From contig NZ_CP117879.1 in assembly GCF_028736155.1 (NCBI RefSeq), forward strand, positions 2,170,001 to 2,234,000: 64,000 bases of DNA. The letters run 5' to 3'. Every line of letters starts with the position of its first letter. Position 1 is the stretch's first letter. Both the position numbers and the translations under genes were made by a program. This document shows, piece after piece, positions 16,538 through 35,782 of this stretch. Under the pieces are notes generated by a model. The model was not told where the DNA came from. It made no database searches and saw only the letters and a list, made by a program, of their open reading frames with translations. Source of the stretch: Flavobacterium sp. KACC 22763. GTDB taxonomy: Bacteria > Bacteroidota > Bacteroidia > Flavobacteriales > Flavobacteriaceae.

Positions 16538-16571
16538 TAAACCCGACAGGTTTTAAAAACCTGTCGGGTTT
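16538..16571 (-). terminator. Long perfect hairpin, likely terminator of the beta-helix gene
   Basis: AAACCCGACAGGTTTT is followed by AAAACCTGTCGGGTTT, an almost loopless stem just 13 bases after the stop codon of the minus-strand beta-helix gene. The core GACAGG/CCTGTC recalls a repeat that I have seen in many Bacteroidetes intergenic regions, so it may be both a repeat and a terminator. Confidence 0.6.
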
Positions 16572-16583
16572 AGTCATAATGTA

Positions 16584-19091: not shown

Positions 19092-19523
19092 TATTTATAG
19101 TATTGATTTTTTTCTTGAGCTAAAATTACGAGGCATTTATTTAAAGCGCTATAATTTTTACAAATAATTGTATTTTTAACACTTTTACCAAATAACAGGG
19201 ACAATTTAAAAGAATATAAAATTACGAGCATCCTGTACCCTCCTGTAATATTGACCTCAAGATATTCATTTCGAAAATTCGGCTTTTAATTATCCTTTCA
19301 TTTCCGAGTCAAAAAAAGTTAAATTCATAAAAAATCTGTGATAAACTCACTAAAACTGTCATTTCGTATTATTTTTTTAATAGATTTGTGTAATCGATTA
19401 CATTAAATATTTCAAATTAAAAAACAGTAATTTTATTTATTGAATAAAAATTTCAGTAATAAAAAATTGAATTAATAGTAAATCGGTTTCCCTAAAAAGA
19501 CTTTTAACTATAATAGAATAAGA
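19092..19523. promoter_or_regulatory. Divergent regulatory region between beta-helix and GH28 genes
   Basis: A 432-base, very AT-rich region with no credible small ORF. It must hold promoters for both divergent exported-enzyme genes. The only clear elements I find are the TAGATTTG box (19381-19388) and the abutting TGTAATCGATTACA palindrome (19389-19402), both on the GH28 side. Confidence 0.6.
19381..19402 (+). promoter_or_regulatory. TAnnTTTG box with adjoining LacI-type operator for GH28
   Basis: TAGATTTG (19381-19388) matches the Bacteroidetes -7 consensus. The perfect 14-base palindrome TGTAATCGATTACA (19389-19402) follows without a gap, so it would cover the transcription start. The central CG of an even palindrome of this form is typical of LacI/GalR-family operators. 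A regulator bound here would block transcription. No LacI-family gene is in the window. Confidence 0.6.
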
Positions 19524-21200: not shown

Positions 21201-21212
21201 TTTTTTTTTTGA

Positions 21213-21365
21213 ACCATATAAGTGATATAAGTTCATTTAATAAAAATGCGAATAAAAAAATCTCGCAAAGACGCCAAGTCGCTAAGAAAATAAAACTTGG
21301 CGACTTGGCGTCTTTGCGAGAACTATTTAAGAACCAGCTAAATTGAACTTATATCACTTATATGG
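21213..21365. repeat. Double palindromic element (family A core in another inverted repeat)
   Basis: Outer arms of about 27 bases, beginning ACCATATAAGTGATATAAGT (21213) and ending ACTTATATCACTTATATGGT (21365), differ by one base insertion. Inside them a second, perfect inverted pair begins TCTCGCAAAGACGCCAAGTC (21261) and ends GACTTGGCGTCTTTGCGAGA (21321). The whole 153-base gap between convergent genes is therefore two nested palindromes. Confidence 0.85.
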
Positions 21366-21377
21366 TTAAGAAAAAAA

Positions 21378-22214
21378 CTAGCTGTTTAGTTTATAAAATT
21401 CGTTCGCATTTACAAACCAAATCTTATTCTGATCTTCAACAGAAAACTTCGAAATATAATCTTCTAAAGTTTTTACCACTTCATTATAATCAGAAGCCAC
21501 ATTTAAAACTGGCCAATCTGATCCATACATTAATTTATCAACTGAAAAGTTTTCAAAAATTACATCTAAATACGGTTTTAAATCTTCTGGTTTCCAGTTT
21601 TTCCAGTCGGCTTCTGTGACCATTCCTGAGATTTTACACCAAACATTATCGTATTTTGCAATTTCCTCAATACCTTTTTTCCAAGAATCAATACTTCCCG
21701 ATTTAATATCTGGTTTTGCAATATGATCGATTACAAATTTTTCGTTTGGAAAATCTTTTACCAAACTTATTGCAGCTGGTAATTGACGTTCGAAAATTAA
21801 TATATCGTAAGTATAATTGAAGGATTTTAAAGCTGTAATTCCTCTTCTGAATTCTGTTCCGAACATAAAATCATCCGCTTCACCCTGTACAACATGTCTA
21901 AAACCTTTCAGTTTTTTTTGATCTGAAAAGAATTGCAAACGATCTTCAATATTCTCATTTCGCAAATCTACCCAGCCTACAACTCCTTTTATGAAATCAT
22001 TTTTAGAAGCCAAATCCAATAAAAAATGAGTTTCCTCTTCTGACTGACTTGCCTGAACTGCAACACAACCTTCAAACTGATTTTCTTTTAATAACGGCTG
22101 TAAATCTTCAGGAAGAAAATCTCTTTGGATATTCTGCATAGTTTCATCGATCCAGCTGTCTCGAACGGGATCAAACTTCCAAAAATGCTGATGGGAATCT
22201 ATTCTTTTACTCAT
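21378..22214 (-). CDS. Amidohydrolase, L-fuconolactonase/L-rhamnonolactonase-like
   Basis: A 278-residue metal-dependent amidohydrolase-2 family protein that probably opens a sugar lactone to the free acid. The N-terminal metal motif RIDSHQHFW is followed by FEGCVAVQASQSEEET, KGFRHVVQGEADDFM, FVIDHIAKPDI and LMYGSDWPVL, whose Asp is a catalytic ligand. This is the usual order in L-fuconolactonases. It lies six bases after the SDR gene on the minus strand. With the SDR, the Zn-dehydrogenase and the FAH hydrolase it forms a non-phosphorylated deoxysugar oxidation route. Whether the sugar is fucose or rhamnose cannot be told from the sequence. Confidence 0.85.
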   Translation of the reverse strand: MSKRIDSHQHFWKFDPVRDSWIDETMQNIQRDFLPEDLQPLLKENQFEGCVAVQASQSEEETHFLLDLASKNDFIKGVVGWVDLRNENIEDRLQFFSDQKKLKGFRHVVQGEADDFMFGTEFRRGITALKSFNYTYDILIFERQLPAAISLVKDFPNEKFVIDHIAKPDIKSGSIDSWKKGIEEIAKYDNVWCKISGMVTEADWKNWKPEDLKPYLDVIFENFSVDKLMYGSDWPVLNVASDYNEVVKTLEDYISKFSVEDQNKIWFVNANEFYKLNS

Positions 22215-22220
22215 ATCTTT

Positions 22221-23018
22221 TTAATTAACATCGCTGATTAAAGCGCGGTCTAAATGTACGTAACCTCCATCCACAAAAACAAATTGTCCTGTAGTATGTG
22301 ATGATTTTTCAGAAATGATAAAAAGAGCTGTATCCGCAATTTCTTCTGTTTTGGTCATACGACTTTCTAACGGAATACTTTTATTGATTTTATTCAAAAC
22401 AGTTTGTCCGTCTGGCAATGTTTTAATCCAATCTTCGTACGCTGGCGTATAGCTTTCAGCAATAATAATCGCATTCGAACGGATCCCGTACTGAATCAAA
22501 TCTACAGCCCACTCTCTGGTTAAGCCCAAAACTCCGCCTTTCGCTGCAGCGTAACCCGAAGTTCCACCCTGCCCTGTTAAAGCTACTTTTGAACCAATAT
22601 TTAAGATATTACCTTTTGATTCTTTTAAGTATGGAAGTGAATATTTAGCTAAAAGAAAATAACTTACTACATTCAATTTCAAAGAATCCATAAATTCCTC
22701 ATAAGAAGCATCTAATCCTGCACCATCATTTACACCAACATTATTAATTATAGCATCGATTCTTCCATATTTAGCTCCGATTACTTTTACGGCATTTTCG
22801 ATTGCAACAGGATCTGTTACGTCAGTCTGCACGAATAAAGAGTTAACCCCTCTTTTTTGAAGTCTTTCTACGTATTCGAAACCTCTTGCATTCCTGTCCA
22901 CCAAAACCGGAATTGCACCTTCATCTGCCAATCTGTTGATAATCGTTTCTCCAATACTGCCTTCTTTTCCAGCCGAACCAGAAACGACAACTATTTTATT
23001 TTTTAAGTTTAAATCCAT
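22221..23018 (-). CDS. SDR oxidoreductase, sugar or 2-keto-3-deoxy-sugar-acid dehydrogenase
   Basis: A 265-residue short-chain dehydrogenase. The cofactor loop is SGSAGKEGSIG, a slightly expanded form of the TGxxxGIG loop. INNVGVN is the NNAG element, and the catalytic triad is S143, Y156 and K160 (Y-A-A-A-K). The C-terminus FVFVDGGYVHLD is typical. In this context it would oxidise L-fucose/L-rhamnose or the derived 2-keto-3-deoxy acid with NAD(P). It is followed six bases later by the lactonase gene, so they are co-transcribed. A family B repeat separates it from the upstream Zn-dehydrogenase gene. Confidence 0.88.
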   Translation of the reverse strand: MDLNLKNKIVVVSGSAGKEGSIGETIINRLADEGAIPVLVDRNARGFEYVERLQKRGVNSLFVQTDVTDPVAIENAVKVIGAKYGRIDAIINNVGVNDGAGLDASYEEFMDSLKLNVVSYFLLAKYSLPYLKESKGNILNIGSKVALTGQGGTSGYAAAKGGVLGLTREWAVDLIQYGIRSNAIIIAESYTPAYEDWIKTLPDGQTVLNKINKSIPLESRMTKTEEIADTALFIISEKSSHTTGQFVFVDGGYVHLDRALISDVN

Positions 23019-23040
23019 TTTTGTGGGTATTAAATATTTA

Positions 23041-23182
23041 TTTTAAACACATAGAAACATAGTTTTAAAACCGTTTAAAAGACGTTTCACTTGCATTAAC
23101 AAACATAGCTATGTGTAAGAAACTAGTTTCTTTTTTTATTCTCTTTACAAACAATAAAAACCTATGTTTCTATGTGTTAGAA
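23041..23182. repeat. Palindromic element family B, copy 3
   Basis: TTTTAAACACATAGAAACAT at the left and CTATGTTTCTATGTGTTAG at the right are inverted. The centre has GACGTTTCACTTG and ACATAGCTATGTG, then ACTAGTTTC. It lies between two genes of the same apparent operon (Zn-dehydrogenase and SDR). Confidence 0.82.
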
Positions 23183-23186
23183 AAAA

Positions 23187-24200
23187 TTATTCTATTTCAA
23201 TTAATGCTTTGATGACATTATTTTTAGGATCAATTAAATTCCCAAAATCAGTAATCATTTCATCAAAACTCGTTCTGTGCGTGATATATTTTTTAGGATC
23301 AATTTTACCTTCTTTCAGACATTTCATTACATATTCGAAATCCACAATTGTTGCATTTCGGCTGCTCATTAAAGTCGATTCTCTTTTGTGGAAATCTGGA
23401 TGACTAAAACTCAATTCTCCCTTTTGAAGTCCGACCAAAACAAATCTTCCGCCATGCGAAATATAATTAAAAGCGCTGTTCATTACTTTCTGGTTTCCTG
23501 TAGCGTCAATTACCACATTTGCCATATCTCCGTTTGTCAATTCAGCTAACTTTTGCGCAACGTCATCGTTTAACGGATTAATCGTTTCATCTGCATTTAG
23601 TTCTGTTTTACAGAAATTTAATCTGTAATCGTTGATATCCATTACGATTACTTTTGCTCCAGCGATTTTAGCAAACTGAATCAATCCAATTCCGATTGGC
23701 CCTGCTCCCATTACCAAAACGGTATCAGTTGGTTTTACAGCCGCTCTTCTAACTCCGTGCGCTGCAATTGCCAAAGGTTCAACCAAAGCCAATTCATCAT
23801 AATCTAAACCTTGACCATGCAATAAATATTGTTCTGGGATTGATAGATATTCAGCCATTCCGCCGTCAATATGAACACCAAAAACTTTGATATTTACACA
23901 GCAGTTTGTCAATCCGTTTCTGCAGGCAACGCATTTTCCACAATTGAAATACGGAATAAAAGTTACTTTATCTCCAGGCTTGAAACCTTCAGCATTTCCT
24001 TTTACATATTCTGCAGCCAATTCGTGGCCAAGAATTCTTGGATATTCAAAATAAGGCTGAGTTCCTCCAAAAGCGTGAATATCAGTTCCACAGATTCCGA
24101 TTCTTTTAATTTTCAATAAAACTTCTCCCTCTTTTGGTTCTGGAATATTGGTTTCTTTTAATAGAAATTCCTGAGGTTTTTCGCAAACAATATATTTCAT
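23187..24200 (-). CDS. Zinc-dependent alcohol dehydrogenase, RspB/LgoD-like
   Basis: A 337-residue medium-chain dehydrogenase. The catalytic zinc ligands lie in GICGTDIH and GHELAAEYV. The structural zinc Cys cluster is CGKCVACRNGLTNCC, and the Rossmann motif is VMGAGPIGIGLIQFAK. The RNATIVDFEYV stretch near the C-terminus resembles sequences in the sugar-acid dehydrogenases RspB and LgoD (L-galactonate 5-dehydrogenase). It probably oxidises a sugar or sugar acid in the same route as the neighbouring SDR, lactonase and FAH hydrolase. It is flanked on both sides by palindromic elements, with the FAH gene upstream on the same strand. Confidence 0.88.
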   Translation of the reverse strand: MKYIVCEKPQEFLLKETNIPEPKEGEVLLKIKRIGICGTDIHAFGGTQPYFEYPRILGHELAAEYVKGNAEGFKPGDKVTFIPYFNCGKCVACRNGLTNCCVNIKVFGVHIDGGMAEYLSIPEQYLLHGQGLDYDELALVEPLAIAAHGVRRAAVKPTDTVLVMGAGPIGIGLIQFAKIAGAKVIVMDINDYRLNFCKTELNADETINPLNDDVAQKLAELTNGDMANVVIDATGNQKVMNSAFNYISHGGRFVLVGLQKGELSFSHPDFHKRESTLMSSRNATIVDFEYVMKCLKEGKIDPKKYITHRTSFDEMITDFGNLIDPKNNVIKALIEIE

Positions 24201-24233
24201 TTTTCGTTTTTCGTTTTGTTTAAATTTCTAATT

Positions 24234-24359
24234 AGACGCGGATTATACAGATTCGCTATCGCGAAGACACGGATGAAACAGATTTTTCATTAATTTTCTT
24301 AAATATAAAATCCGTTTAAATCCGCGTTTTTACGAAGTAAATCCGTTTTATCCGCGTCA
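24234..24359. repeat. Palindromic element family C, uninterrupted copy
   Basis: GACGCGGATTATACAGATTC at the left leads into CGCTATCGCGAAGAC. The right arm has TCCGCGTTTTTACGAAGTAA and TCCGTTTTATCCGCGTC. The arms match those at 8675-8727 and 8880-8920, but the centre is short and AT-rich with no inserted element. It lies between the FAH and Zn-dehydrogenase genes. Confidence 0.8.
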
Positions 24360-24377
24360 CAATAACAGATAGTTATA

Positions 24378-25232
24378 TTACTTTTTGTAAGCTACAGCCT
24401 TTTGTTTGCTTGTTCCTAATCCTTCAATTCCCAATTCAACAACATCGCCGGCTTTAATATAAATCGGATCTGGTTTAATACCTAAACCAACTCCCGGAGG
24501 TGTTCCTGTACTGATAATATCGCCTGGAAGCAAAGTCATAAACTGACTTAAATAATGTACCAAATAAGGAATTTTGAAAACTAGATTTAGTGTATTACTG
24601 TCTTGGTATTTTTTACCATTTACCGTCAGCCACATCTTTAAATTGTCAACATCAGCAATTTCGTCTTTTGTAGCCAAAAATGGTCCAAGAGGCGCAAAAG
24701 TGTCGCTTCCTTTTCCTTTTGCCCATTGTCCGCCACGCTCTAACTGAAAAGCTCTTTCGCTGTAATCATTCAATAAAGCGTAACCCGCAACATAATCTAA
24801 AGCTTCAGCTTCTTCAACATAACTTGCTTTTTTGCCCACGATAAAAGCCAATTCAACTTCCCAGTCGGTTTTTTCGCTATTTTTTGGAATAATCAAATCA
24901 TCGTCTGGACCGCACAAAGAAGTTGTTGATTTGAAGAAAATAATCGGTTCTGTCGGAATCGGAGCGTTTGTTTCTTTACAGTGATCAATATAATTTAAAC
25001 CAATGCAAATAATTTTTGAAGGTCTTGCCACTGGCGAACCCAAACGTACCGAAGCATCAACTTCTGGCAGAGTCGGGTTACTTTCTAATGTTTTTTGCAA
25101 TTTTTCTAATCCGTTTTCTTCAAAGAAACTTTCGTTAAAATCGGTTACAATTGAAGAAACATCATATCTCTTTTCTCCAATCAAAACTCCAGGTTTCTCT
25201 TTTCCGATTTCTCCAAAACGTATTAATTTCAT
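24378..25232 (-). CDS. Fumarylacetoacetate-hydrolase-family enzyme, 2,4-diketo-3-deoxy-sugar-acid hydrolase type
   Basis: A 284-residue FAH-fold hydrolase. IICIGLNYIDHCKETNAP begins the catalytic domain. Metal ligands are in TDWEVELAFIVG (E125, E127) and LLNDYSER (D156), followed by QWAKGKGSDTFAPLGPFL and GDIISTGTPPGVGLG. In the L-fucose/L-rhamnose diketo-hydrolase pathway such enzymes split 2,4-diketo-3-deoxy acids into pyruvate and L-lactate. The three dehydrogenase/lactonase genes downstream support this. The dehydratase that should make the 2-keto-3-deoxy acid is not in the window. It is divergent from the solute-binding-fold/CoA-transferase operon. Confidence 0.88.
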   Translation of the reverse strand: MKLIRFGEIGKEKPGVLIGEKRYDVSSIVTDFNESFFEENGLEKLQKTLESNPTLPEVDASVRLGSPVARPSKIICIGLNYIDHCKETNAPIPTEPIIFFKSTTSLCGPDDDLIIPKNSEKTDWEVELAFIVGKKASYVEEAEALDYVAGYALLNDYSERAFQLERGGQWAKGKGSDTFAPLGPFLATKDEIADVDNLKMWLTVNGKKYQDSNTLNLVFKIPYLVHYLSQFMTLLPGDIISTGTPPGVGLGIKPDPIYIKAGDVVELGIEGLGTSKQKAVAYKK

Positions 25233-25597
25233 AATCGTATATTTTTAATTGTTAGTTTATTTTCAATTGTAATTCTCCATTTATAAATTAAAAATTCTTC
25301 AAAAAGAACAAATCAAAATTAATAAATGTAAAAAATACAATTACAAAAATACTTTTTAAAAATTAATATCCGAGATATATTTCGTTTTCCTATTCTTAAA
25401 ATGACTAAACTTTAAATTTTTATAACATTCTTTAGATGGTTTGTAAAAATTATATCACTAATTCTCCTATTATGCAAAAAGATCCTTTAATAAATAAAGG
25501 ATTTCTTGCTCATTTAAATCTTATTTCTACTTTTGTAATTGTATTTTTTACATTTATTATTTCAAACGATTTCACTACCCAAAATTCCTATATAAAA
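25233..25597. promoter_or_regulatory. Divergent promoter region, FAH operon versus CoA-transferase operon
   Basis: A 365-base AT-rich stretch. On the minus strand TAATTTTG (25314-25321) matches the -7 consensus, with a TTG (25344-25346) 22 bases upstream, a good promoter for the FAH gene with a leader of about 75 bases. I found no clear box on the plus strand. An open frame reaches back to 25436 but is probably not translated. Confidence 0.45.
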
Positions 25598-26746
25598 ATG
25601 ATAAAATTAAAAGGCATAACTTGGAATCATACAAGAGGTTTACTACCAATGGTTGCCACATCACAGCGTTTTACTGAACTACATCCTGATGTTGAAATTT
25701 CTTGGGAGAAAAGAAGCTTACAAGAATTTGCAGATGCTTCTATCGAAGACTTGGCCAAAAGATTTGATTTATTGGTAATCGATCATCCTTGGACAGGTTT
25801 TGGAGCGCAAACCAAAGCGATTCTTCCGTTATCTGATTATTTATCTAACGAATATATTAAAGATCAAGAAAATAATACTGTTGGAAAATCGTACGGAAGT
25901 TATGTTTTTCATGATAAATTATGGGCGTTGCCAATTGATGCAGCAACTCCGGTTGCCTCTGCCCGCTTGGATCTTTTAGAAAAAAACAATTTAGAAGTTC
26001 CTAAAACTTATGATGATTTATTGGCTTTAGCGAAAAAAGGCTTAGTCGCTTTCGCTGGAATTCCGGTAGATGTTTTAATGAGTTTTTATATGTTTTGCTG
26101 CAGTTTGGGCGAATCTCCTTTTCTTTCTGAAGAAAAAGTGATTTCTGAAACTACAGGAATCAAGGCGCTTCAAATGTTTAGAGAACTGGCGCAGTTGATT
26201 GATCCAGCAAACTTTAATCGTAATCCAATTCAAGTTTATGAAGCAATGGTGAATTCAGACGAAATTGCGTATTGTCCGTTTGCTTATGGTTATTCTAACT
26301 ATTCTCGCATTGGCTACAGCCAAAACCTTTTACATTTTTATGATTTAGTAAAATTGAATGATAATCCAATGATTTCTTCTTTGGGAGGAACTGGATTAGC
26401 GGTTTCTTCATTCAGCAAACATATGGAAACAGCTATAAAATATGCAGAATTTACTTGTTCATCACAGGTTCAGCAGAATATTTATACCGATAATGGCGGT
26501 CAGCCGGGTCATTTACAAGCTTGGAAAAGCGAAAGAATTAATGGCGTGACGCACGATTATTTCAAAAATACACTTCCTGCTTTAGAACGCGCTTTCCTTC
26601 GTCCGAGATATTATGGACACATGTATTTCCAAGATCATGCTGGAGATGTGGTTCGCAATTATTTGATGAATGGCGGAGACGAACTAAAAGTATTGGAAGA
26701 AATGAATTCGCTTTACGCGGAATCTCTAAAAATCCAGATCGTATGA
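25598..26746 (+). CDS. Solute-binding-fold protein without signal peptide (first of two)
   Basis: About 382 residues from the ATG at 25598, which begins directly with MIKLKGITWNHTRG, the first beta strand of an extracellular solute-binding protein (family 1) fold. Typical features follow: FDLLVIDHPW, LWALPIDAATPVASARLDLL, VPKTYDDLLALA, GGTGLAVSSFSKHMETAIKYAEF and QQNIYTDNGGQPG. An ATG at 25436 would add 54 residues with one hydrophobic run, but that extension looks like non-coding AT-rich sequence. No signal peptide and no ABC permease genes are visible. The stop overlaps the CoA-transferase start (ATGA). It may be a cytosolic binding protein or an enzyme of the pathway; its role is unknown. 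Confidence 0.72.
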   Translation: MIKLKGITWNHTRGLLPMVATSQRFTELHPDVEISWEKRSLQEFADASIEDLAKRFDLLVIDHPWTGFGAQTKAILPLSDYLSNEYIKDQENNTVGKSYGSYVFHDKLWALPIDAATPVASARLDLLEKNNLEVPKTYDDLLALAKKGLVAFAGIPVDVLMSFYMFCCSLGESPFLSEEKVISETTGIKALQMFRELAQLIDPANFNRNPIQVYEAMVNSDEIAYCPFAYGYSNYSRIGYSQNLLHFYDLVKLNDNPMISSLGGTGLAVSSFSKHMETAIKYAEFTCSSQVQQNIYTDNGGQPGHLQAWKSERINGVTHDYFKNTLPALERAFLRPRYYGHMYFQDHAGDVVRNYLMNGGDELKVLEEMNSLYAESLKIQIV

Positions 26747-27894
26747 GACCTTTAGAAGGATTAGTTGTTCTGGAATTCTGCCAATTTTTAGCAGGACCTT
26801 CAGCTGGTTTAAAACTAGCCGATTTTGGTGCACGTGTCATCAAAATTGAGCGTCCTGTAAAAGGTGAAGCTTGCAGACAATTGAGCATCAAAGATTTATT
26901 TGTAGACGATAGCAGTTTGCTTTTTCATACCATAAACAGAAATAAAGAATCTTTTGCAGCCGATTTAAAAAATCCTGACGATTTGGTTTTAATTAAAAAA
27001 CTAATCCAAAAGGCTGATATTATGACGCATAATTTCAGACCTGGAGTGATGGAAAAAATCGGTTTAGATTTTGAAAATACGCTTTCTATTAATCCGCAAA
27101 TTATTTACGGAACTATTACAGGTTACGGAAATGAAGGTCCGTGGGCAAAAAAACCAGGACAAGATTTATTATTACAATCGCTTTCCGGATTAAGCTGGCT
27201 GAGCGGACGCAAAAGTCAAGGCCCAGTTCCTTTTGGTTTGGCTGTAGCTGATTTAATGTGCGGGAATCATTTTGTACAAGGAATTTTAGCAGCGCTTTTA
27301 AAAAGAGCCAAAACTAAAAAAGGCGTTTTGGTAGAAGTGAGTTTGCTGGAGTCTATTCTCGATGTCCAATTCGAAGCCATTACTTCTTTCTTAAATGATG
27401 GAGGCCAATTACCTGAACGTGGTGATATTAAAGGAAGTGCACATGCTTTTTTAAGTGCGCCTTACGGAGTTTATCAAACACAAGACGGTTATTTATCTCT
27501 TGCGATGGGCGATTTACTTTTTATTGGAAAAACATTAGGTTTAGATTTAAATGCCTTTGCAGATAAACATCTTTGGTTTGAAAAAAGAGATGAAATCAGA
27601 ACGATTTTGAGTGAAAGAATTAAAACCCAAACTTCTGATTACTGGATTGAAATCCTGCAAAAAGAAGGTATTTGGTGCGGAAAAGTTTTCAACTACGAAG
27701 AATTAGACAGTCAGCCTTTTGTGAATGAATTACAGCTGAAACAAACGGTGAAAAATACCGAAGGCGAAACTTTGGTAACCACCAGAAGTCCGATCCAATT
27801 GGATGGCGAAATTTTATTAAGTGAAAAAGCCGCTCCAAAAGTAGGACAGGATAATTTGAACATACACGAACAATTTTTAAACGATTTGAAATGA
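26743..27894 (+). CDS. CaiB/BaiF (family III) CoA-transferase, copy 1
   Basis: A 383-residue family III CoA-transferase, which moves CoA between carboxylic acids. LEGLVVLEFCQFLAGPSAGL and LADFGARVIKIERP form the N-terminal nucleotide-binding motif. HNFRPGVMEKIGLDF and IIYGTITGYGNEGPWAKKPGQD follow. The catalytic aspartate is D170 in GLAVADLMCGNHFVQG, the position of Asp169 in formyl-CoA transferase. It overlaps its neighbours on both sides by four bases. A close paralogue follows at once. The acid substrate is unknown; sugar-acid genes around it suggest a carbohydrate-derived acid. Confidence 0.92.
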   Translation: MRPLEGLVVLEFCQFLAGPSAGLKLADFGARVIKIERPVKGEACRQLSIKDLFVDDSSLLFHTINRNKESFAADLKNPDDLVLIKKLIQKADIMTHNFRPGVMEKIGLDFENTLSINPQIIYGTITGYGNEGPWAKKPGQDLLLQSLSGLSWLSGRKSQGPVPFGLAVADLMCGNHFVQGILAALLKRAKTKKGVLVEVSLLESILDVQFEAITSFLNDGGQLPERGDIKGSAHAFLSAPYGVYQTQDGYLSLAMGDLLFIGKTLGLDLNAFADKHLWFEKRDEIRTILSERIKTQTSDYWIEILQKEGIWCGKVFNYEELDSQPFVNELQLKQTVKNTEGETLVTTRSPIQLDGEILLSEKAAPKVGQDNLNIHEQFLNDLK

Positions 27895-29030
27895 AACCTT
27901 TAGAAGATTATTTAATTATAGATTTCAGTCAGTTTCTTTCGGGTCCGTCAGCGAGTTTGCGTTTGGCAGATTTGGGTGCTCGTGTAATCAAAATTGAAAA
28001 ACCGGGAACAGGAGATATCTGCCGTACTTTATATACTTCTGATTTGATTATGAACGGCGAATCGTCTGTTTTTCATACTATCAACAGAAACAAAGAATCT
28101 TTTGCAATTGATTTTAAACAGCCTGAGGAACTTCAAAAACTAAAAAAATTATTAGCCAAGGCTGATGTTGTCATGCATAATTTCAGACCCGGAGTTATGG
28201 AGCGCATTGGTTTAAGTTATGATGACGTAAAAAACATCAATCCAAATGTGATTTATGGATCGATTTCAGGTTTTGGAGAACATCCTGATTTGAAAGATTT
28301 ACCGGGTCAGGATTTGCTTTTACAATCATTAACGGCTTTAACTTGGCTGAGCGGCGATCAAGAAGATGGCCCAGTTCCAATGGGATTGTCGATTGTGGAC
28401 ATGCTTGCCGGAGCTCATTTAGCGCAAGGAATTTTAGCCACTTTATATAGAAAAGCAACTCATAACATTGGCGCACAAATTCAAGTCAGTATGTTGGAAT
28501 CCGCGTTTGATTTTCAGTTTGAAACTATTACGACTTACTTTAATGACGGAGGTGAATTGCCTGTTAGAACTAAAACGAATAATGCACACGCTTATTTGGG
28601 CGCGCCATACGGGATTTACAAAACCAAAAACGGCTATTTAGCATTGGCAATGGGATCAATTCCTGTTTTGGCTTCTTTGCTAAAATGTGATGCTTTATTG
28701 GCTTTCCCTGAAAATAAATTTACACTTAGAGACGAAATCAAAAATATCCTTGCCGATCATTTGCAAACGCAGGAAACACAGTTTTGGTTGGATATTTTAG
28801 AACCCGCAGACATTTGGTGTGCAGGAGTTTTAAACTATCAGCAGTTATTTGCTGAAGACGGATTTAAGGTTTTGAATTTTACCCAGCAAGTCGAAATGCT
28901 TGACGGCTATACTTATAAAACAACGCGCTGTCCGATAAAAATCGACGGCGAATATCTGACTTCAGGAAAAGGTTCGCCAAAACTGGGTCAGGACAACGAG
29001 AAAATTATTAAAGAATTTATTGACTGTTAA
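27891..29030 (+). CDS. CaiB/BaiF (family III) CoA-transferase, copy 2
   Basis: A 379-residue paralogue of the preceding protein; roughly half the residues look identical by eye, and the motifs align residue for residue (HNFRPGVMERIGLSY, PGQDLLLQSL, D170 in GLSIVDMLAGAHLAQG). Both catalytic aspartates are kept, so both are probably active, perhaps as a heteromer or on two different acids. The start codon overlaps the stop of copy 1 (ATGA), and its stop shares one base with the next start (TAATG). Such tight coupling of two CoA-transferases flanked by binding-fold genes suggests a fixed stoichiometric complex. Confidence 0.92.
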   Translation: MKPLEDYLIIDFSQFLSGPSASLRLADLGARVIKIEKPGTGDICRTLYTSDLIMNGESSVFHTINRNKESFAIDFKQPEELQKLKKLLAKADVVMHNFRPGVMERIGLSYDDVKNINPNVIYGSISGFGEHPDLKDLPGQDLLLQSLTALTWLSGDQEDGPVPMGLSIVDMLAGAHLAQGILATLYRKATHNIGAQIQVSMLESAFDFQFETITTYFNDGGELPVRTKTNNAHAYLGAPYGIYKTKNGYLALAMGSIPVLASLLKCDALLAFPENKFTLRDEIKNILADHLQTQETQFWLDILEPADIWCAGVLNYQQLFAEDGFKVLNFTQQVEMLDGYTYKTTRCPIKIDGEYLTSGKGSPKLGQDNEKIIKEFIDC

Positions 29031-30286
29031 TGGAAAAAATTAGAATCGCCGTTCGTAAATTCGATCCTTTCGAAAGTACACTTCGAAAATTATGGGATGC
29101 ATTTTCACTTCAAAACAATATAAAAATTGAAGCTGAAATGGTTGCCTTAGAACTTCATGATTTATATGAAACCACGATTTCAGATAAAGGTTTAAAAGAA
29201 GGAAAATGGGACATCGCCCATATTAACACCGATTGGATTTATGATGCTGCAAACGAAAATGCGGTTCTTAATTTATTTTCATTAATTGGAGAAAATCCGC
29301 CAGAAAATTATCCTTTTGGGTGGCATAAATCGCTTTTGCATTTGCAGAAACTAAGTAACGGCATTTTCGGACTTCCTTTTCACGACGGTCCAGAATGTTT
29401 GATATACCGAAAAGATTTATTCGAAAACGAAACGGAGAAAGAGAATTTTAAAAAGCAGTTTGGTTACGAACTTGCTACGCCAAAAACCTGGCAGGAATTT
29501 TCAGAGATAGCAACATTTTTTAATCGTCCCGAACAAAATTTATACGGTGCTGTTTTTGCCAATTATCCAGACGGACACAATATGGTTTTCGATTTTTGCC
29601 TGCAATTATGGACACGTGGCGGTTCTTTATTAAACAAAAAAAATCAGATTGACATTCATAATGAAGCAGCGATAAAAGCATTGGATTTTTATCGAAAAAT
29701 GGTTAATAACAAAAATGCGGTTCATCCAAAATCGAGAGAATTTGGTTCTGTTGAAGCAGGTTTGGCTTTCGCCGAAGGACAAGCGACAATGGCTATCAAC
29801 TGGTTCGGGTTTGCTTCTATGGCGGAAGTAATCGAAGAATCGAAAGTGAAAGGAAAAATCGATATCACTTCGCTCCCATCTGATCCGGGGCATAAAACAG
29901 CTTCTTTGAATGTATATTGGTTATATACTATTGGCTCAGGAAGCAAGCACAAAAAATTAGCTTACAATTTTCTAAGATTTGCTACTACACCCGAAAGCGA
30001 TAAATTATTAACCACAGAAGGCGGTATCGGATGCCGAAAATCGACTTGGAAAGATGCAGAAATTAATACTTTAATTCCATTTTATCATAAACTGGAAATG
30101 CTTCATGAAAATGCATTAACTCTGCCTCAAACTCCAATCTGGCCAAAAGTAGCTGAATTGATTGACGGCACTGTTTTAAAAGCCATTGAAACCGATATTC
30201 CATCTGAAATACTTTTAGAAGAAACTCAAAAGAAAATAAAAGAACTAAGTCAAGGAACAACATTACACAGTTCTGTCAAAAATTAA
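29030..30286 (+). CDS. Solute-binding-fold protein without signal peptide (second of two)
   Basis: A 418-residue protein beginning MEKIRIAVRKFDPFESTLRKLW, that is, directly at the first strand of an extracellular solute-binding-protein fold, with no leader. Further marks are WDIAHINTDWIYDA, LPFHDGPECLIYRKDLFE, TPKTWQEFSEIATFF, EAGLAFAEGQATMAINWFGF and KKLAYNFLRFATTPESDKLL. The two binding-fold genes are only distantly alike. The start is fixed by the TAATG overlap with the CoA-transferase. Having such a protein in the cytosol, inside a CoA-transferase operon and without any ABC permease, is unusual. It may bind the CoA-acceptor acid or act as an enzyme. Confidence 0.75.
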   Translation: MEKIRIAVRKFDPFESTLRKLWDAFSLQNNIKIEAEMVALELHDLYETTISDKGLKEGKWDIAHINTDWIYDAANENAVLNLFSLIGENPPENYPFGWHKSLLHLQKLSNGIFGLPFHDGPECLIYRKDLFENETEKENFKKQFGYELATPKTWQEFSEIATFFNRPEQNLYGAVFANYPDGHNMVFDFCLQLWTRGGSLLNKKNQIDIHNEAAIKALDFYRKMVNNKNAVHPKSREFGSVEAGLAFAEGQATMAINWFGFASMAEVIEESKVKGKIDITSLPSDPGHKTASLNVYWLYTIGSGSKHKKLAYNFLRFATTPESDKLLTTEGGIGCRKSTWKDAEINTLIPFYHKLEMLHENALTLPQTPIWPKVAELIDGTVLKAIETDIPSEILLEETQKKIKELSQGTTLHSSVKN

Positions 30287-30319
30287 ATTTGACAGGCTTA
30301 ATTTCAAAATATAGAAAAA

Positions 30320-31393
30320 ATGAATATTCAATATAAACCTTTACTTCCTCAAACAGAACAGCCCATTGTAATTATTGGAGCAAGTGGTATTGTAAAAGAT
30401 GCCCATCTTCCTGCTTACGAAATGGCTGGTTTTAAAGTTTTTGGCATTACCAACAGAACGATTTCGAAAGCATACGATTTACAGAAACAATTCAAAATCG
30501 ATCATGTTTTTGAAAGTGTTGCCGATGCGGTTAAAAATGCGCCGTCAAACGCTGTTTACGATATTACGGTTTTACCTGATCAGTACATCGAAATTTTAGA
30601 ACAATTGCCAGACGGAGCTGCAGTTTTGATTCAGAAACCAATGGGAAATGATTTGGCTCAGGCTCGTGAAATTGTCGAAGTCTGCGAAAGAAAAAATCTG
30701 GTTACTGCAATCAATTTCCAATTACGTTTTGCTTCTTTTGTAAGTGCAGCCAGATATTTAATCGATCAGGGAATTATTGGCGAATTATACGATTTAGAAT
30801 TTAAAGTTACCGTAAATACGCCTTGGGAATTGTTTCCTTTAATTAAAGAACATCCGAGATTGGAGATTCTTTTCCACAGTGTGCATTACATTGACTGCAT
30901 TCGATCTTTTCTGGGAAATCCGAAAAGTGTATTGGCAAAAACGGCCAAACATCCGCTTAAAAAATTATCATCAAGCCGATCTACGATTATTTTGGATTAT
31001 GGCGAAGATAAACATGTTGTGATCAATACGAATCACGATCATCATTTTGGTCCAAAACACGAAGAAAGCTACATTAAATGGGAAGGAACAAAGGGCGCTG
31101 TTAAAGCAAAAATGGGATTGCTTATGAACTATCCTGACGGTCTTCCTGACGTTTTTGAGTACGCTTTACCAAAAAAAGATAATGAAAATGAATACGAATG
31201 GACAGAAGTAAAACTAGAAGGTTCGTGGTTTCCAGAAGCTTTTATTGGCGCAATGTCTAATCTGATGCGTTACAAAGAGGGTTCTGACTCAGTATTATCT
31301 GCCAGCGTTCAGGATGTTTTAGGAACAATGAAAGTTGTAGAAGCTTGTTATGAAAGTAACAAAAACGGCGGAATTTCTTTTGAAGAAGTGTAA
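30320..31393 (+). CDS. Gfo/Idh/MocA family oxidoreductase
   Basis: A 357-residue oxidoreductase with the Rossmann motif IVIIGASGIVKDAHLPAYEMAG. GAAVLIQKPMGNDLAQAREI is the EKP motif with Gln in place of Glu, keeping the catalytic Lys. EILFHSVHYIDCIRSFLG carries the His/Asp pair. It lies 33 bases after the second binding-fold gene and is probably part of the same operon. Members of this family oxidise or reduce sugars or inositols, so a sugar-like substrate feeds or leaves the CoA-dependent steps. Confidence 0.88.
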   Translation: MNIQYKPLLPQTEQPIVIIGASGIVKDAHLPAYEMAGFKVFGITNRTISKAYDLQKQFKIDHVFESVADAVKNAPSNAVYDITVLPDQYIEILEQLPDGAAVLIQKPMGNDLAQAREIVEVCERKNLVTAINFQLRFASFVSAARYLIDQGIIGELYDLEFKVTVNTPWELFPLIKEHPRLEILFHSVHYIDCIRSFLGNPKSVLAKTAKHPLKKLSSSRSTIILDYGEDKHVVINTNHDHHFGPKHEESYIKWEGTKGAVKAKMGLLMNYPDGLPDVFEYALPKKDNENEYEWTEVKLEGSWFPEAFIGAMSNLMRYKEGSDSVLSASVQDVLGTMKVVEACYESNKNGGISFEEV

Positions 31394-31484
31394 TTAAAAC
31401 ACTATATTTCAAAACCAAAAAACAAAATTTAAGTCCTCTTCAAAACAAACGCGATGTTGAGCTGACGAATAAAAAGAATAACTT

Positions 31485-31928
31485 ATGTATTTTAAATCAA
31501 CTTTTTTCGAAGATTATCAAATCGACGACAAACGAATAACTTTAGGCCGAACAATTACAGAAACTGATTTTGTGGTTCATGCCGGGCACACAGGAGATTT
31601 CTTCCCACATCACATGGACGAAGAATGGTGCAAAACTCAACCATTCGGACAAAGAATTGCACACGGAACCATGGTTTTTGCCATCGGAATCGGATTAACA
31701 GCATCTGAAATAAATCCTGAAGCTTTTTCTAGAGGTTACGACAAAATGCGTTTTGTAAAACCAGTTCATATTGGTGACACTATTCATTCCGAAGTTACTA
31801 TTTCTGAAAAAGGAGAAGCCAAAAATCCTGAAATGGGAGCTGTTACAGAACACGTGGAAATTATTAACCAAAGAGGTGAAGTAGTTCTTGTTTGTGATCA
31901 CCTTTTATTTGTGAAAAGAAAACCTTAA
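31485..31928 (+). CDS. MaoC-like enoyl-CoA hydratase
   Basis: A 147-residue single hot-dog domain. The hydratase-2 motif is [17 protein letters not shown] followed by [11 protein letters not shown]38 and H43 take the places of the catalytic Asp and His (D-x4-H). This family hydrates or dehydrates enoyl-CoA thioesters with R stereochemistry. Its presence just after two CoA-transferases suggests that the acid activated by them is then hydrated or dehydrated as a CoA ester. The start ATG at 31485 gives a normal N-terminus ([17 protein letters not shown]). Confidence 0.88.
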
Positions 31929-31946
31929 ATATTAGCTTTATAACAA

Positions 31947-32022
31947 TCTCGCAAAGTCGCAAAGACGCAGAGTTAAAAGTAAAGCAATTTGAAAGACTTT
32001 GCGATTCTGCGACTTTGCGAGA
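31947..32022. repeat. Palindromic element family A, between maoC-like and fucP-like genes
   Basis: TCTCGCAAAGTCGCAAAGAC at the left and TTCTGCGACTTTGCGAGA at the right are inverted, with an AT-rich centre. The 5' end of a longer open frame for the downstream symporter overlaps this element, which argues for the later start at 32056. Confidence 0.75.
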
Positions 32023-32055
32023 ACCACTAAAAAACAACTTAAAACTATCACACGA

Positions 32056-33360
32056 ATGCAAATTACAAACCAAGCCGGCGATCTACATGAAGTGCCAACA
32101 GAAGGAGGAAATCAAAAGCAATATCTATTGCCTTTTATCCTCGTTACATGCCTATTTTTTCTGTGGGGAATGGCCCACAACTTAGATTCAGTTTTGATTC
32201 CGCACTTGAAAAAAGCGTGCGAATTAAACAATCGCCAGTCTACTCTAATTGATACTTCTGTATTCTTTGCTTATTTTATCATGGCGATTCCAGCTGGAAT
32301 GCTGATTAAAAGATTTGGTTATAAAAACAGTATCATTACTGGATTATTAGTTTTTGCAGCAGGAGCATTTTTGTTTGTTCCAGCAGCTAATACTAGAACT
32401 TACGAATTGTTTTTATTTGCCCTTTTTGTAATTGGATGTGGTTTAACGATTTTAGAAACTAGTGCAAACCCTTACGCTGCAATTTTAGGACCTGCAGAAT
32501 CTTCTTCTAAAAGATTGAATTTAGCAGCTTCTTTTAACGGACTGGCTGCCATGGTTGCTCCAATTGTAGGTTCGCTATTTATTCTTTCTGGAACCAATCA
32601 TACAAAAGAACAAATGGCGGCAATGCCAGAGGCTGAAAAAGCGGCTTATTTATTGGGTGAAGCGGCTTCTGTAAAAATGCCTTATATCGTATTAGGAAGT
32701 ATTTTAGTTTTAGTTGCTGTTATATTTTATTTTGTACAATTGCCATCGATGAAAGCTACTCACGCAGAAGCTGAAATTAAACCAGGATTTTTCTCAGTTT
32801 TAAAATTCAGACATTTAAGCTGGGGTGTTGTAGCTCAATTTTTCTATGTGGGTGCACAGGTTTGCATAACAAGTTTCTTTATCAGAATTGCACAGCAAGG
32901 TGCTGGATTAGACGAAAAAACGGCTGGATATTATCTAGGAATCTACGGTTTCCTTTTTATGGCAGGACGTTTTATTGGAACTTTCTTTTTACGTTTTGTA
33001 AAAGATTATGTTTTATTGTCAATCTATTGCGTAATGAGTGTTTTATTATGTCTAGTTGCCATTTACGGTTCTGGAATTGTTGTTATTTATGCTCTTGGCG
33101 GAATCGGGTTCTTTATGTCAATTATGTTCCCAACTATATTTTCTTTAGGAATTAAAGGCTTAAAATCGAACACGGAAACGGGTTCTTCTTGGTTAGTAAT
33201 GTCAATCGTTGGTGGAGCAATTATTCCGTACGGAATGGGAACTTTAATCGATATGAATCATGATGACATTCAGTCTGGGTATATTATTCCACTAGTTTGT
33301 TTCTTGATTATTCTTTCTTTTGGAGCTATTGGACATAAAGTGAAAACGGTTTCTGAATAG
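32056..33360 (+). CDS. FucP-like L-fucose/hexose:H+ symporter (MFS)
   Basis: About 434 residues from the ATG at 32056; the frame is open from 31999, but that part lies in a repeat. The FucP/GluP marks are LFFLWGMAHNLDSVLIPHLK in TM1, FFAYFIMAIPAGMLIKRFGYK, ETSANPYAAILGP (the family N-P-Y) and FNGLAAMVAPIVGS. Twelve membrane spans are expected. Related proteins import L-fucose, L-rhamnose-like sugars, glucose or galactose with protons. It ends the plus-strand operon and probably imports its substrate. Confidence 0.88.
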   Translation: MQITNQAGDLHEVPTEGGNQKQYLLPFILVTCLFFLWGMAHNLDSVLIPHLKKACELNNRQSTLIDTSVFFAYFIMAIPAGMLIKRFGYKNSIITGLLVFAAGAFLFVPAANTRTYELFLFALFVIGCGLTILETSANPYAAILGPAESSSKRLNLAASFNGLAAMVAPIVGSLFILSGTNHTKEQMAAMPEAEKAAYLLGEAASVKMPYIVLGSILVLVAVIFYFVQLPSMKATHAEAEIKPGFFSVLKFRHLSWGVVAQFFYVGAQVCITSFFIRIAQQGAGLDEKTAGYYLGIYGFLFMAGRFIGTFFLRFVKDYVLLSIYCVMSVLLCLVAIYGSGIVVIYALGGIGFFMSIMFPTIFSLGIKGLKSNTETGSSWLVMSIVGGAIIPYGMGTLIDMNHDDIQSGYIIPLVCFLIILSFGAIGHKVKTVSE

Positions 33361-33367
33361 TTTTTTT

Positions 33368-33620
33368 GCCACTAATTCCACAAATTAACACGAATTTTTA
33401 TTTTTAAAATATCAATTGCCTCCAGCTTTAGCTGGAGGTTTTTTGTTTATGTAAATAAAAGGCTTTAGCCAAACTAGGCGCAAAAGTTTGGCTAAAGCCA
33501 ATAAATGTAGAATCAAGTAACCTCCAGCTAAAGCTGGAGGCAATTCATTTTAGCTGAAAATTAGCTTAAATTACACTATTTATAAAAATAAAATTCGTGC
33601 TAATTCGTGCAATTAGTGGC
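33368..33620. repeat. Palindromic element family E enclosing family F
   Basis: GCCACTAATTCCACAAATTA plus ACACGAATTTTT (33368-33399) is mirrored by AAAATTCGTGCTAATTCGTG plus CAATTAGTGGC (to 33620). The 190 bases between the arms contain a different palindromic element (33416-33546). This accounts for the whole 314-base gap after the symporter gene; no gene is seen there. Confidence 0.8.
33416..33546. repeat. Palindromic element family F (nested)
   Basis: GCCTCCAGCTTTAGCTGGAG at the left and CTCCAGCTAAAGCTGGAGGC at the right are inverted and each is itself a hairpin. Between them an inner pair GGCTTTAGCCAAACT (33461) and AGTTTGGCTAAAGCC (33485) makes a further stem. Confidence 0.8.
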
Positions 33621-33632
33621 TATAAAAAATCA

Positions 33633-33658
33633 AAAACGCCTCCAATTGGAGGCGTTTT
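33633..33658. terminator. Bidirectional terminator
   Basis: AAAACGCCTCC-AATT-GGAGGCGTTTT is a perfect stem with A and T tails. It lies between the ends of the convergent symporter gene and the His/Asn-rich protein gene and would serve both. Confidence 0.85.
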
Positions 33659-33674
33659 CTTTTAGTCATGTTTA

Positions 33675-34178
33675 TTAATGGTGTTTGCCATTACCGTGAT
33701 CGTGGTTCTTGTCTGACTTATTCTTTCCTTGGCTGTTTCCGTTGCCATTGTTCCCACTATTTCCTTTATCATTTCCATAGTGGTTTCCGTTGTTGCCTTT
33801 TGGCTTTTCACCTCTATTTTTTTGAGGTTTACCGTGGTAACCTTTCGGATATTCAGCTCTATGTTTTGAATGATAATAATAAGGAGAATTTCCTCTATAA
33901 TCAGTCAAAACTACTTTATATCCTGAATACAAATCATAGTTTCTATATATAGACGGAAGTCTTCTTTCACGAATCCATTTTCCGCTATTGGCATAAATAA
34001 ATACGCTTTGATTTATATCATAATACACATCGATATCTGGCAAATAATAGTATCTGCTGTTGTCGTAACCTTGCGGCCCCCAATTTGGAGGAGTACCAAT
34101 ATTTACATTTACTGATACTTGAGCTTGAGCAAAAAATGCACTCATAAAAAGCACTGAGGCGAATATTAACTTTTTCAT
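33675..34178 (-). CDS. Exported protein with His/Asn/Gly-rich tail, unknown function
   Basis: A 167-residue protein. A signal peptide (residues 1-19, ending in FFAQA) precedes a short domain with VNIGTPPNWGPQGYDNSRYYYLPDIDVYYDIN and two further aromatic-rich strands, a pattern seen in Bacteroidetes periplasmic proteins of unknown role. From about residue 115 the chain is low-complexity, rich in Asn, Gly, Lys and His, ending HDHGNGKHH, so metal binding is possible. It is monocistronic with a strong terminator. I do not recognise a named function. Confidence 0.8.
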   Translation of the reverse strand: MKKLIFASVLFMSAFFAQAQVSVNVNIGTPPNWGPQGYDNSRYYYLPDIDVYYDINQSVFIYANSGKWIRERRLPSIYRNYDLYSGYKVVLTDYRGNSPYYYHSKHRAEYPKGYHGKPQKNRGEKPKGNNGNHYGNDKGNSGNNGNGNSQGKNKSDKNHDHGNGKHH

Positions 34179-34311
34179 GTCTTTAGAATTTAAATGTTAA
34201 CTGTAATAGATATTAATCGAAATTAATGCCAAAGATTTGTGATTCAAGCATTCATTATACAAAATTACGAAACTAATCGACGAATAGTGTTTTTTAAACG
34301 ATGTACTTTTC

Positions 34312-34343
34312 AAAAAACCGTCTCAGATTTTGAGACGGTTTTT
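34312..34343 (-). terminator. Terminator of the RND efflux operon
   Basis: AAAACCGTCTCA and TGAGACGGTTTT form a 12-pair stem just after the outer-membrane factor stop codon on the minus strand, with flanking A/T runs. Confidence 0.85.
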
Positions 34344-34357
34344 ATCATTATAAACAA

Positions 34358-35764
34358 TTATTTCCAACCACCACCCAACGCTCTGTACAAATTAATAACA
34401 GCTTGCAATTTTTGCAGATTATCATTTACTCCGTTTAACTGCGCTGCTAAAAGGTTTTGTTGCGATGTAAGTACATCTGTATAGTTAGTTGCAGAACTAT
34501 ATTCTAAAAGTTCTTGTGTAAAGTCTACTGCTTTTTCTAAAGCTGCAATTTGTTTGGCTCTAGAATCTTCTTTTTCAACAGCCATTTGGTACGCATATAA
34601 GGCATTTGAAACTTCCTGACCTGCTACTAAAAGACTTTGCTGGAAATTATTATATGCTTGTAATTGTTGTGACTGGGCTGTAGTCAATCTCATTTTATTT
34701 AAGCCGTTATTGAATAAAGGCTGTGTTAATCCTCCAATAATCGAATAAAAGATAGAATGGCTGAAGAAATCATTTAATTCTAAATTTGAAAATCCTGTGC
34801 TTGCTGTAAGCGTCAAACTTGGGTAAAAATAAGTTTTAGCCAAATTAGTCGACTCAAAAGCGACTCTGAAATTAAATTCCGCTTGACGGACATCTGGACG
34901 GTTATTTAATAACTGAGCAGGCATTCCGATTGCAATTTTTTCAGGAATAATCTGTGTTCCCAAAACACCTCTATCAATTGGTCCAGGCCCTTGTCCAAGT
35001 AAAATATTTATAGCATTTTCAGTTTCACGAATGCTTTGCTTCAAGTCTGGGATTAAAACTTCAGCCGCATGCCGGTTAGCCTCACTCTGAACAACCGCAG
35101 CACCTGTTACAATTGCTCCTTCTTTTAAAGCTTTAATGGTTGCAACGTTTTCTATACGGCTTTTTAATGTTTCTTCCGTAATTTTTAACGATTCATCATA
35201 CGATAATAACAAGAAATAATTATTGGCAATATCGGCAATTAATTGCGTTTGAATTGCTTGTTTTGCAGCATCAGAAGCCAAATAAGTTGCCAAAGCTGCT
35301 CTTTTAGAACTGCTTAATTTTCCCCAAACATCAATTTCCCAAGAACTGCTTACGCCTAATTTGTAAGTTGTAGTTAAGGTATTAATATTGATTCCTGCCG
35401 GAAAGTTTAATCCTGCCTGAGATTGTTTGTTATGCGTCACATTAGCGTCCAATTGCAAACTTGGATAATAAGCCAATTTACTCTGGCGCAAAGAAGCTCT
35501 TGCCTGAACAATATTCTCAATTGCATTTTTCAGATTCAAGTTCTGTTCTAAACCTTTTTGAATTAATGCATTTAATTTTTCATCTTTAAAAACAGTGTTC
35601 CAAGGCATATCTGCAATTGTAGTCGAATCAGTCGTAGATTGATCACGATACAGTTGGTCTGTTTTTAATGTTGTGGGACGTTCGTATTTCTTGGTAACAG
35701 AGCACGCACTAATAAGTGCGGCTGTCATTACCAGTAAAATATATTTATTTGAACTATTCGTCAT
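34358..35764 (-). CDS. RND efflux outer-membrane factor (NodT/OprM type lipoprotein)
   Basis: A 468-residue TolC-superfamily channel. The lipoprotein signal is ALISAC (Cys21). Two outer-membrane efflux repeats are visible, each with long helices, including NLKNAIENIVQARASLRQSK and RPDVRQAEFNFRVAFE. LGVSSSWEIDVWGKLSS is a family signature. It is the last gene of the adaptor-pump-channel operon, 18 bases after the pump gene. It would form the exit duct across the outer membrane. Confidence 0.95.
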   Translation of the reverse strand: MTNSSNKYILLVMTAALISACSVTKKYERPTTLKTDQLYRDQSTTDSTTIADMPWNTVFKDEKLNALIQKGLEQNLNLKNAIENIVQARASLRQSKLAYYPSLQLDANVTHNKQSQAGLNFPAGININTLTTTYKLGVSSSWEIDVWGKLSSSKRAALATYLASDAAKQAIQTQLIADIANNYFLLLSYDESLKITEETLKSRIENVATIKALKEGAIVTGAAVVQSEANRHAAEVLIPDLKQSIRETENAINILLGQGPGPIDRGVLGTQIIPEKIAIGMPAQLLNNRPDVRQAEFNFRVAFESTNLAKTYFYPSLTLTASTGFSNLELNDFFSHSIFYSIIGGLTQPLFNNGLNKMRLTTAQSQQLQAYNNFQQSLLVAGQEVSNALYAYQMAVEKEDSRAKQIAALEKAVDFTQELLEYSSATNYTDVLTSQQNLLAAQLNGVNDNLQKLQAVINLYRALGGGWK

Positions 35765-35782
35765 TTTTGTTGTAATTTAAAT

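Follow-up and report, generated by a model that had tools for sequence, protein, structure and literature searches.

Which reaction is catalysed by an operon that combines genes for two solute-binding-fold proteins with two coenzyme A (CoA) transferases, an enoyl-CoA hydratase and a FucP-type importer? Such an operon occupies positions 25598..33360 of a 64,000-nucleotide stretch of the Flavobacterium sp. KACC 22763 genome (hereafter, the window), with all seven genes on the + strand. An original prediction, made from the letters of the window, had read it as a route that handles a sugar-derived acid as CoA thioesters, with binding-fold proteins of the cytosol as possible enzymes, chaperones or sensors. 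The present analysis supports that reading in part and fits it well. The searches described below found no conserved signal peptide, sugar permease or published pathway of this kind. L-fucose is added as the likely sugar; the step itself stays a proposal. A CoA-thioester sugar-acid route of some kind, employing cytosolic solute-binding proteins (SBPs), is in our judgment likely. The narrower view, that the operon supplies the CoA-thioester dehydration part of the non-phosphorylative L-fucose pathway, with CaiB and MaoC proteins acting on L-fuconate and cytosolic SBPs as their partners, has about an even chance of being right. The sequences themselves show the gene families, their order and conservation, the absence of a conserved signal peptide, the nearness of L-fucose genes and the gene fusions.

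Gene content and the proposed L-fuconate step

The operon begins with SBP1 (25598..26746; Pfam SBP_bac_8/1), a cytosolic solute-binding-fold protein and presumptive partner of CaiB, followed by two family III CoA-transferases, CaiB1 (26743..27894; PF02515, 303.5 bits) and CaiB2 (27891..29030; PF02515, 292.8 bits; YfdE and SUGCT top its PDB list), and by a second cytosolic solute-binding-fold protein, SBP2 (29030..30286; PF01547 (SBP_bac_1), 91.5 bits). Downstream lie a Gfo/Idh/MocA oxidoreductase (30320..31393; PF01408/PF02894), a MaoC-type enoyl-CoA hydratase/dehydratase (31485..31928; NCBIfam; PDB 4ffu, E 3.6e-63, and 1q6w) and a FucP-type L-fucose:H+ symporter of the major facilitator superfamily (MFS) (32059..33360; TIGR00885, 363.5 bits, cut-off 280.4). 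Gene order, strand and coordinates agree with the original prediction, as do the overlaps of one to four bases among the first four genes, which measure 4, 4 and 1 nt.

Divergent from the operon, and absent from the original prediction, are L-fucose-type genes spanning 21378-25232 on the - strand. They encode an FAA-hydrolase family protein resembling 2,4-diketo-3-deoxy-fuconate/rhamnonate hydrolases (24378..25232), whose best match, 2,4-didehydro-3-deoxy-L-rhamnonate hydrolase, falls under its cut-off (NF053535, 376.4 bits, cut-off 500); a zinc-dependent dehydrogenase (ADH) (23187..24200; PF00107/PF08240); an L-fucose dehydrogenase of the short-chain dehydrogenase/reductase (SDR) type (22221..23018; NF052481, 355.6 bits, cut-off 300); and an L-fucono-1,5-lactonase-like amidohydrolase (21378..22214; PF04909; NF052480, 264.7 bits, below the cut-off of 400). 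FucP and the L-fucose dehydrogenase both score above their curated cut-offs. Because FucP is accompanied by divergent L-fucose dehydrogenase, lactonase-like and diketo-hydrolase-like genes, L-fucose is the likely sugar of the operon. Among these neighbours in the window, no known dehydratase for converting L-fuconate to 2-keto-3-deoxyfuconate was found, and no clear gene for a 2-keto-3-deoxyfuconate 4-dehydrogenase, for which the ADH is a possibility. The locus resembles the non-phosphorylative L-fucose pathway of Xanthomonas and Paraburkholderia in uniting FucP, L-fucose dehydrogenase, lactonase-like and diketo-acid-hydrolase-like genes. It differs from that pathway in lacking an enolase-type or UxaA-type fuconate dehydratase and in carrying paired CaiB genes, a pair of cytosolic SBP genes, MaoC and Gfo/Idh instead.

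We propose the conversion of fuconate to 2-keto-3-deoxyfuconate as the operon's step, and infer from gene content its substrate, direction, CoA cycling, complex formation and the role of the SBPs. FucP would import L-fucose, which the dehydrogenase and lactonase, both assigned by family, would convert to L-fuconate. CaiB1 and CaiB2, probably as one heterodimer, would load CoA onto L-fuconate, and MaoC would dehydrate the thioester at the 3-hydroxyl to yield the enol of 2-keto-3-deoxyfuconyl-CoA. The transferase could then hand the CoA to the next fuconate and release free 2-keto-3-deoxyfuconate, which a 4-dehydrogenase and the FAA hydrolase would turn into pyruvate and lactate. SBP1 (and SBP2) may be soluble partners of the transferase that bind the sugar acid and deliver it to this enzyme, or that join in catalysis.

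Carnitine metabolism offers a parallel: CaiB and CaiD, a family III CoA-transferase and an enoyl-CoA hydratase, together act as a dehydratase and recycle CoA likewise. The same pairing, within one operon or locus, is found here; the differences are the paired CaiB genes, the use of MaoC for crotonase in most loci read, the cytosolic SBPs and the surrounding sugar genes. Both transferases score above the PF02515 cut-off and carry Asp170, which we take to be the catalytic aspartate of the family (98/98 aligned CaiB1 and 105/105 aligned CaiB2 sequences). The column presumed to correspond to the catalytic His of the His/Asp pair in alpha-methylacyl-CoA racemase, an enzyme of the same fold, is Gln in all 98 CaiB1 and in 104/105 CaiB2 sequences. 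These two genes account for both CoA_transf_3 matches in the window's genome. MaoC combines hot-dog homology with what we assume to be the Asp/His dyad of (R)-specific hydratases/dehydratases, Asp38 being present in 103/103 and His43 in 99/103 aligned sequences (Val in the other four). Its close structural-genomics relative 4ffu is labelled only 'oxidase', so a public structure of this enzyme type exists without a stated function.

Elsewhere in the window, positions 3246-21200 contain genes that by eye resemble those for pectin or rhamnogalacturonan degradation (polygalacturonase-like, rhamnosidase-like, SSS symporter); the labels GH28 and PL835 for open reading frames of the window were likewise given by eye. 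No Rfam RNA family was found in 16000-36000.

Distribution of the module

Eighty related loci on genome contigs were scored by tblastn at 1e-15. The core module is nearly invariant among them (SBP1 80, CaiB1 80, CaiB2 79, SBP2 79, Gfo 79, MaoC 78, FucP-like 78), with MaoC missing only from L022 and L069, whose contigs are 12.5 and 6.6 kb long. The pathway genes are less frequent: L-fucose dehydrogenase, lactonase and ADH each occur in 57 loci and FAA in 50, and 33 contain a 2-keto-3-deoxyfuconate-dehydrogenase-like SDR resembling that of a second locus in the window's genome, described below. Queries for UxaA (lacking about nine C-terminal residues) and FucD matched none of the 80 module loci at this threshold, and another enolase-family query gave a single 31% match (L080).

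The conserved gene order that the original prediction had proposed to look for across Bacteroidota is fixed in loci of the Flavobacterium/Pedobacter/Hymenobacter type; in other Bacteroidota, order, importer and hydratase type vary. SBP1 was detected in 19/395 genomes drawn evenly from the phylum. Of nine of these for which wider stretches were read, eight have an adjacent CaiB, with MaoC in six of these and crotonase only in two (L138, L139); L137 has MaoC plus a distant crotonase match 7.5 kb away, and in L136 SBP1 stands alone with a CaiB pair about 60 kb off. The importer alternates between FucP and RhaT types.

One further genome (G343), in which tblastn at 1e-10 shows the complete module and L-fucose locus and which has one FAA gene, bears on the missing step. 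Its single UxaA match (53%) lies in a galacturonate-type cluster, since the neighbouring genes correspond to those of a cluster in the window's genome that encodes tagaturonate reductase, aldolase, kinase and uronate isomerase. It has one IlvD, and matches to the MR_MLE/enolase family occur only in frames of 376, 340 and 434 aa, of which, judged by size and one NCBIfam look at a 336-aa protein, 434-aa frames were taken as enolase and those of 340-350 aa as MenC or dipeptide-epimerase types. In this genome the module is the sole candidate seen for fuconate dehydration.

Relatives of SBP1 were also found by tblastn in 146 plasmid records, from which 19 loci were picked for spread; with L117, reached through CaiB2, 20 loci were read, several being close kin. 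At a tblastn cut-off of 1e-12, CaiB is present in 19 of them, 18 of which have it on the strand of SBP1 and no more than 400 nt away; MaoC is present in 12, crotonase in 5 and either hydratase in 17. When the Bacteroidota loci L104 and L105 are set aside, the remaining 18, not all independent, contain CaiB in 17 and MaoC or crotonase in 15. Relatives from Alphaproteobacteria and Streptomyces retain three components together, namely a cytosolic SBP, CaiB and a hydratase, and the hydratase of this triad can come from two unrelated folds, MaoC and crotonase. In most loci from rhizobia and marine Alphaproteobacteria, the CaiB-SBP1 pair is accompanied by genes for an amidohydrolase, IclR, an ATP-binding cassette (ABC) importer that has an SBP of its own, a member of the enolase family, a mutarotase, Gfo/Idh and MaoC. 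The Persicobacter and Croceibacterium loci encode an alpha-L-fucosidase. In Sinorhizobium meliloti 1021 pSymB (L102:8839-9989), the CaiB match beside SBP1 is split over two frames; it is intact in strain ABS7 (L103).

Two lineages may connect the triad with pentoses. Azospirillum L127 has the order LacI, CaiB, SBP, crotonase, FAH protein and aldehyde dehydrogenase, followed by an SBP and two ABC permeases. Streptomyces L115 carries, among transposase genes, an SBP, an FAH protein 57% identical to that of L127, CaiB, MFS, MaoC and a related aldehyde dehydrogenase. An excerpt of PMC6336799 describes FAH-superfamily proteins acting as 2-keto-3-deoxypentonate (KDP) dehydratases and names COG0129, enolase and COG2721 as pentonate dehydratase kinds. 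Queries for these kinds, at a tblastn cut-off of 1e-12, found no match within 37 kb surrounding the Azospirillum genes or within the 21 kb read of L115. In L127/L190 and L115, CaiB, SBP and hydratase stand with an FAH protein of KDP-dehydratase-like type and an aldehyde dehydrogenase of NADP type, and it is the last two that make these loci look like Weimberg-like pentose clusters. They share the FAH protein and the aldehyde dehydrogenase with Route II (Weimberg) pathways and differ in having CaiB, SBP and hydratase; in the stretches read, these queries placed no pentonate dehydratase of the COG0129, enolase or UxaA type near them. The triad would thus stand at the aldonate-dehydratase step of two sugar pathways. 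We advance, with somewhat less than even confidence, a fourth, CoA-dependent kind of sugar-acid dehydratase beside IlvD/Edd, enolase and UxaA: an SBP-dependent CaiB complex with an exchangeable MaoC or crotonase, which would act in L-fucose and pentose breakdown in at least three phyla.

Gene fusions also join members of the module. A joined SBP1+CaiB1 query matched 376 proteins at E <= 1e-20, and the best 120 of these comprise 117 CaiB-CaiB fusions or pieces thereof and three SBP1-CaiB fusions. The named CaiB-CaiB fusions come from Hymenobacter, Pelagicoccus, Planctomycetota, Verrucomicrobiota and one bin called Janthinobacterium; the SBP1-CaiB fusions (P0317, P0331, P0360) are metagenomic and 70-79% identical to one another.

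L-fuconate or another acid

Several observations weigh against L-fuconate dehydration as the function of the operon. The lactonase and FAA hydrolase score under their curated cut-offs, though these are their best family matches; the roles of Gfo/Idh, ADH and SBP2 are left unexplained; and we know of no precedent for such a 2-keto-acyl-CoA intermediate. An FAA gene is not seen in 30/80 module loci, some on short contigs. Components also occur apart: no SBP1 accompanies a CaiB2 relative (L116) within the 18 kb that were read, and SBP1 lacks a nearby CaiB in L111 and L136. The three metagenomic SBP1-CaiB fusions could stem from an indel at overlapping genes. Furthermore, the window's genome possesses a second L-fucose-type locus (G000:C1 4381744-4389078; L124:7745-15079), which encodes an SGLT-like symporter (by eye), an L-fucose dehydrogenase (414.6 bits), a dehydratase of the UxaA family and an SDR, together with an FAA hydrolase that shares 83% identity with that of the window. 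Another Flavobacterium, G206 (L141:4610-10816), has Gfo, importer, SDRs, ADH, lactonase and FAA in a locus without SBP1, SBP2, CaiB1, CaiB2 or MaoC, and no CaiB2 match was found elsewhere in its genome. Among 40 control FAA loci without the module, hand-chosen from 76 FAA matches and surveyed by tblastn at 1e-10, UxaA occurs in 18, FucD in 4 and neither in 18, so module loci are not alone in having no such dehydratase nearby. Known sugar-acid dehydratase families are present in 9/18 non-Bacteroidota plasmid loci, including an annotated L-fuconate dehydratase in two alphaproteobacterial ones, and the module is accordingly not a simple dehydratase replacement there.

Strict replacement of a dehydratase everywhere is weakened by the alphaproteobacterial dehydratases, G206 and the 18/40 control loci. 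The idea of a clean replacement is most tenable in the Weimberg-like loci and in Flavobacterium genomes that have no second locus; Alphaproteobacteria fit it less well.

The strongest competing explanation is that the module is a CoA-thioester pathway in its own right, for some other or modified 6-deoxy-sugar acid such as an epimer, O-methyl-fucose or a pectin-derived acid, and shares only the importer and the locus with the L-fucose genes. Loci of the Pedobacter/Hymenobacter type with the module core and importer but no L-fucose genes would suit it, as would the enolase-family genes adjoining the module in Alphaproteobacteria, the replacement of FucP by a RhaT-type importer in several Bacteroidota, and the retention of L-fucose genes without the module in G206. 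It must contend with three kinds of neighbour that indicate L-fucose, namely FucP with L-fucose dehydrogenase, alpha-L-fucosidase and annotated L-fuconate dehydratase, and with the occurrence of the same triad in Weimberg-like loci, which favours a general aldonate step over one odd sugar. We regard this explanation as unlikely, while giving it real weight. In an excerpt of PMC5507952, strain HL-49 (A. marincola) is given as lacking FucD and an unknown rhamnose route as existing in Rhodobacteraceae; no tie of either to the module is made.

Solute-binding-fold proteins inside the cell

SBP1 and SBP2 both belong to the SBP fold by Pfam SBP_bac_1 or SBP_bac_8, SBP1 having the fold of a typical sugar SBP. 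Across 33 non-redundant SBP1 sequences from three phyla, the motifs TWxHxRG, DHP, YGYxxY, GGTG, GQP and RPRxxG...Q are nearly fixed, and fourteen checked His/Arg/Asp/Trp/Gln positions are almost unchanged. The near-invariant residues include His11, Arg13, His63, Arg123, Arg335 and Arg337. The Microvirga L111 protein alone lacks His63 and Arg337; it also lacks Trp109, Thr265 and Asn315, positions at which a few other sequences differ as well. Its gene (L111:10001-11173) overlaps a mannonate-dehydratase gene instead of CaiB, and its 21 kb contain no CaiB and two mannonate-dehydratase genes beside it. This one case hints that His63 and Arg337 go with the presence of CaiB; L136 SBP1, also without an adjacent CaiB, retains both. 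If the SBPs acted in the cytosol as ligand sensors or as chaperones regulating the CoA-transferases, neither delivering nor converting substrate, the typical sugar-SBP fold, the tight linkage to CaiB and the fusions would be accounted for, whereas fourteen near-unchanged positions over three phyla suggest more than loose regulation; we consider such a purely regulatory role improbable.

The lack of a signal peptide claimed in the original prediction was judged from reading frames and conservation among relatives, and it stands. At loci with at least 45% identity, the open in-frame stretch upstream of SBP2 is shorter than 15 codons in 80/85 cases, and that upstream of SBP1 in 43 of 93, with 15-39 codons in 30 and 40 or more in 20; neither set of loci reveals a conserved signal peptide. 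Longer hydrophobic SBP1 extensions occur in some Flavobacterium species, including the window (ATG at 25436). In these extensions the DNA is alike while the reading frame differs between close relatives, and they overlap a promoter-like site, TTG-N19-TAnnTTTG, of the Bacteroidota-type consensus. The site (25506..25535, +; pattern match) sits 50-65 nt before SBP1, within the misleading hydrophobic open frame, and recurs in 54/78 SBP1 upstream regions, the window included, versus 0.6 expected from shuffles. A hidden SBP1 signal peptide is rejected on these grounds: conserved DNA, frame shifts among close relatives and the promoter-like site.

Another possible objection to the original prediction, a co-conserved ABC permease elsewhere, found no footing either: the window's genome yielded no sugar ABC permease, its sole PF00528 match being MetI-like and adjoining an ATPase and lipoprotein of MetNIQ type by eye, in a profile search that can miss genes (SBP2 was missed on a first look with PF13416). 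That the SBPs serve an ABC sugar importer with permeases elsewhere in the genome, as family annotation and fold would suggest, is rejected as extremely improbable, within the reach of that profile search, given this MetI-like match, the lack of conserved signal peptides and the fusions to CaiB. Among the best 120 matches of each SBP search, named proteins are almost all from Flavobacterium, and listed homologues that carry names are called 'ABC transporter substrate-binding protein', 'extracellular solute-binding protein' or 'multiple sugar transport system substrate-binding protein', names that mislead on cellular place and role.

Non-transport roles of the fold include that of MqnA, an SBP-fold enzyme. 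Cyclohexadienyl dehydratase is a comparable case in an excerpt of PMC7683729. The module's SBPs differ in having the sugar (MalE-like) type of fold and in their linkage to CoA-transferases, and catalysis by them is hypothetical. In open-access literature searched by title or start of abstract, we found no description of this gene set, its CoA esters or such a pathway, in line with the original prediction, whose author knew of no such described pathway. We know of no earlier case of an SBP as a subunit of a soluble CoA-transferase complex, and this would be the first if true. L-fuconate dehydration by the CaiB-MaoC module, if confirmed, would add a CoA-thioester step to oxidative sugar catabolism, would account for some of the loci for fucose and pentose breakdown in which a dehydratase is missing, and would give a soluble binding protein a job within an enzyme complex.

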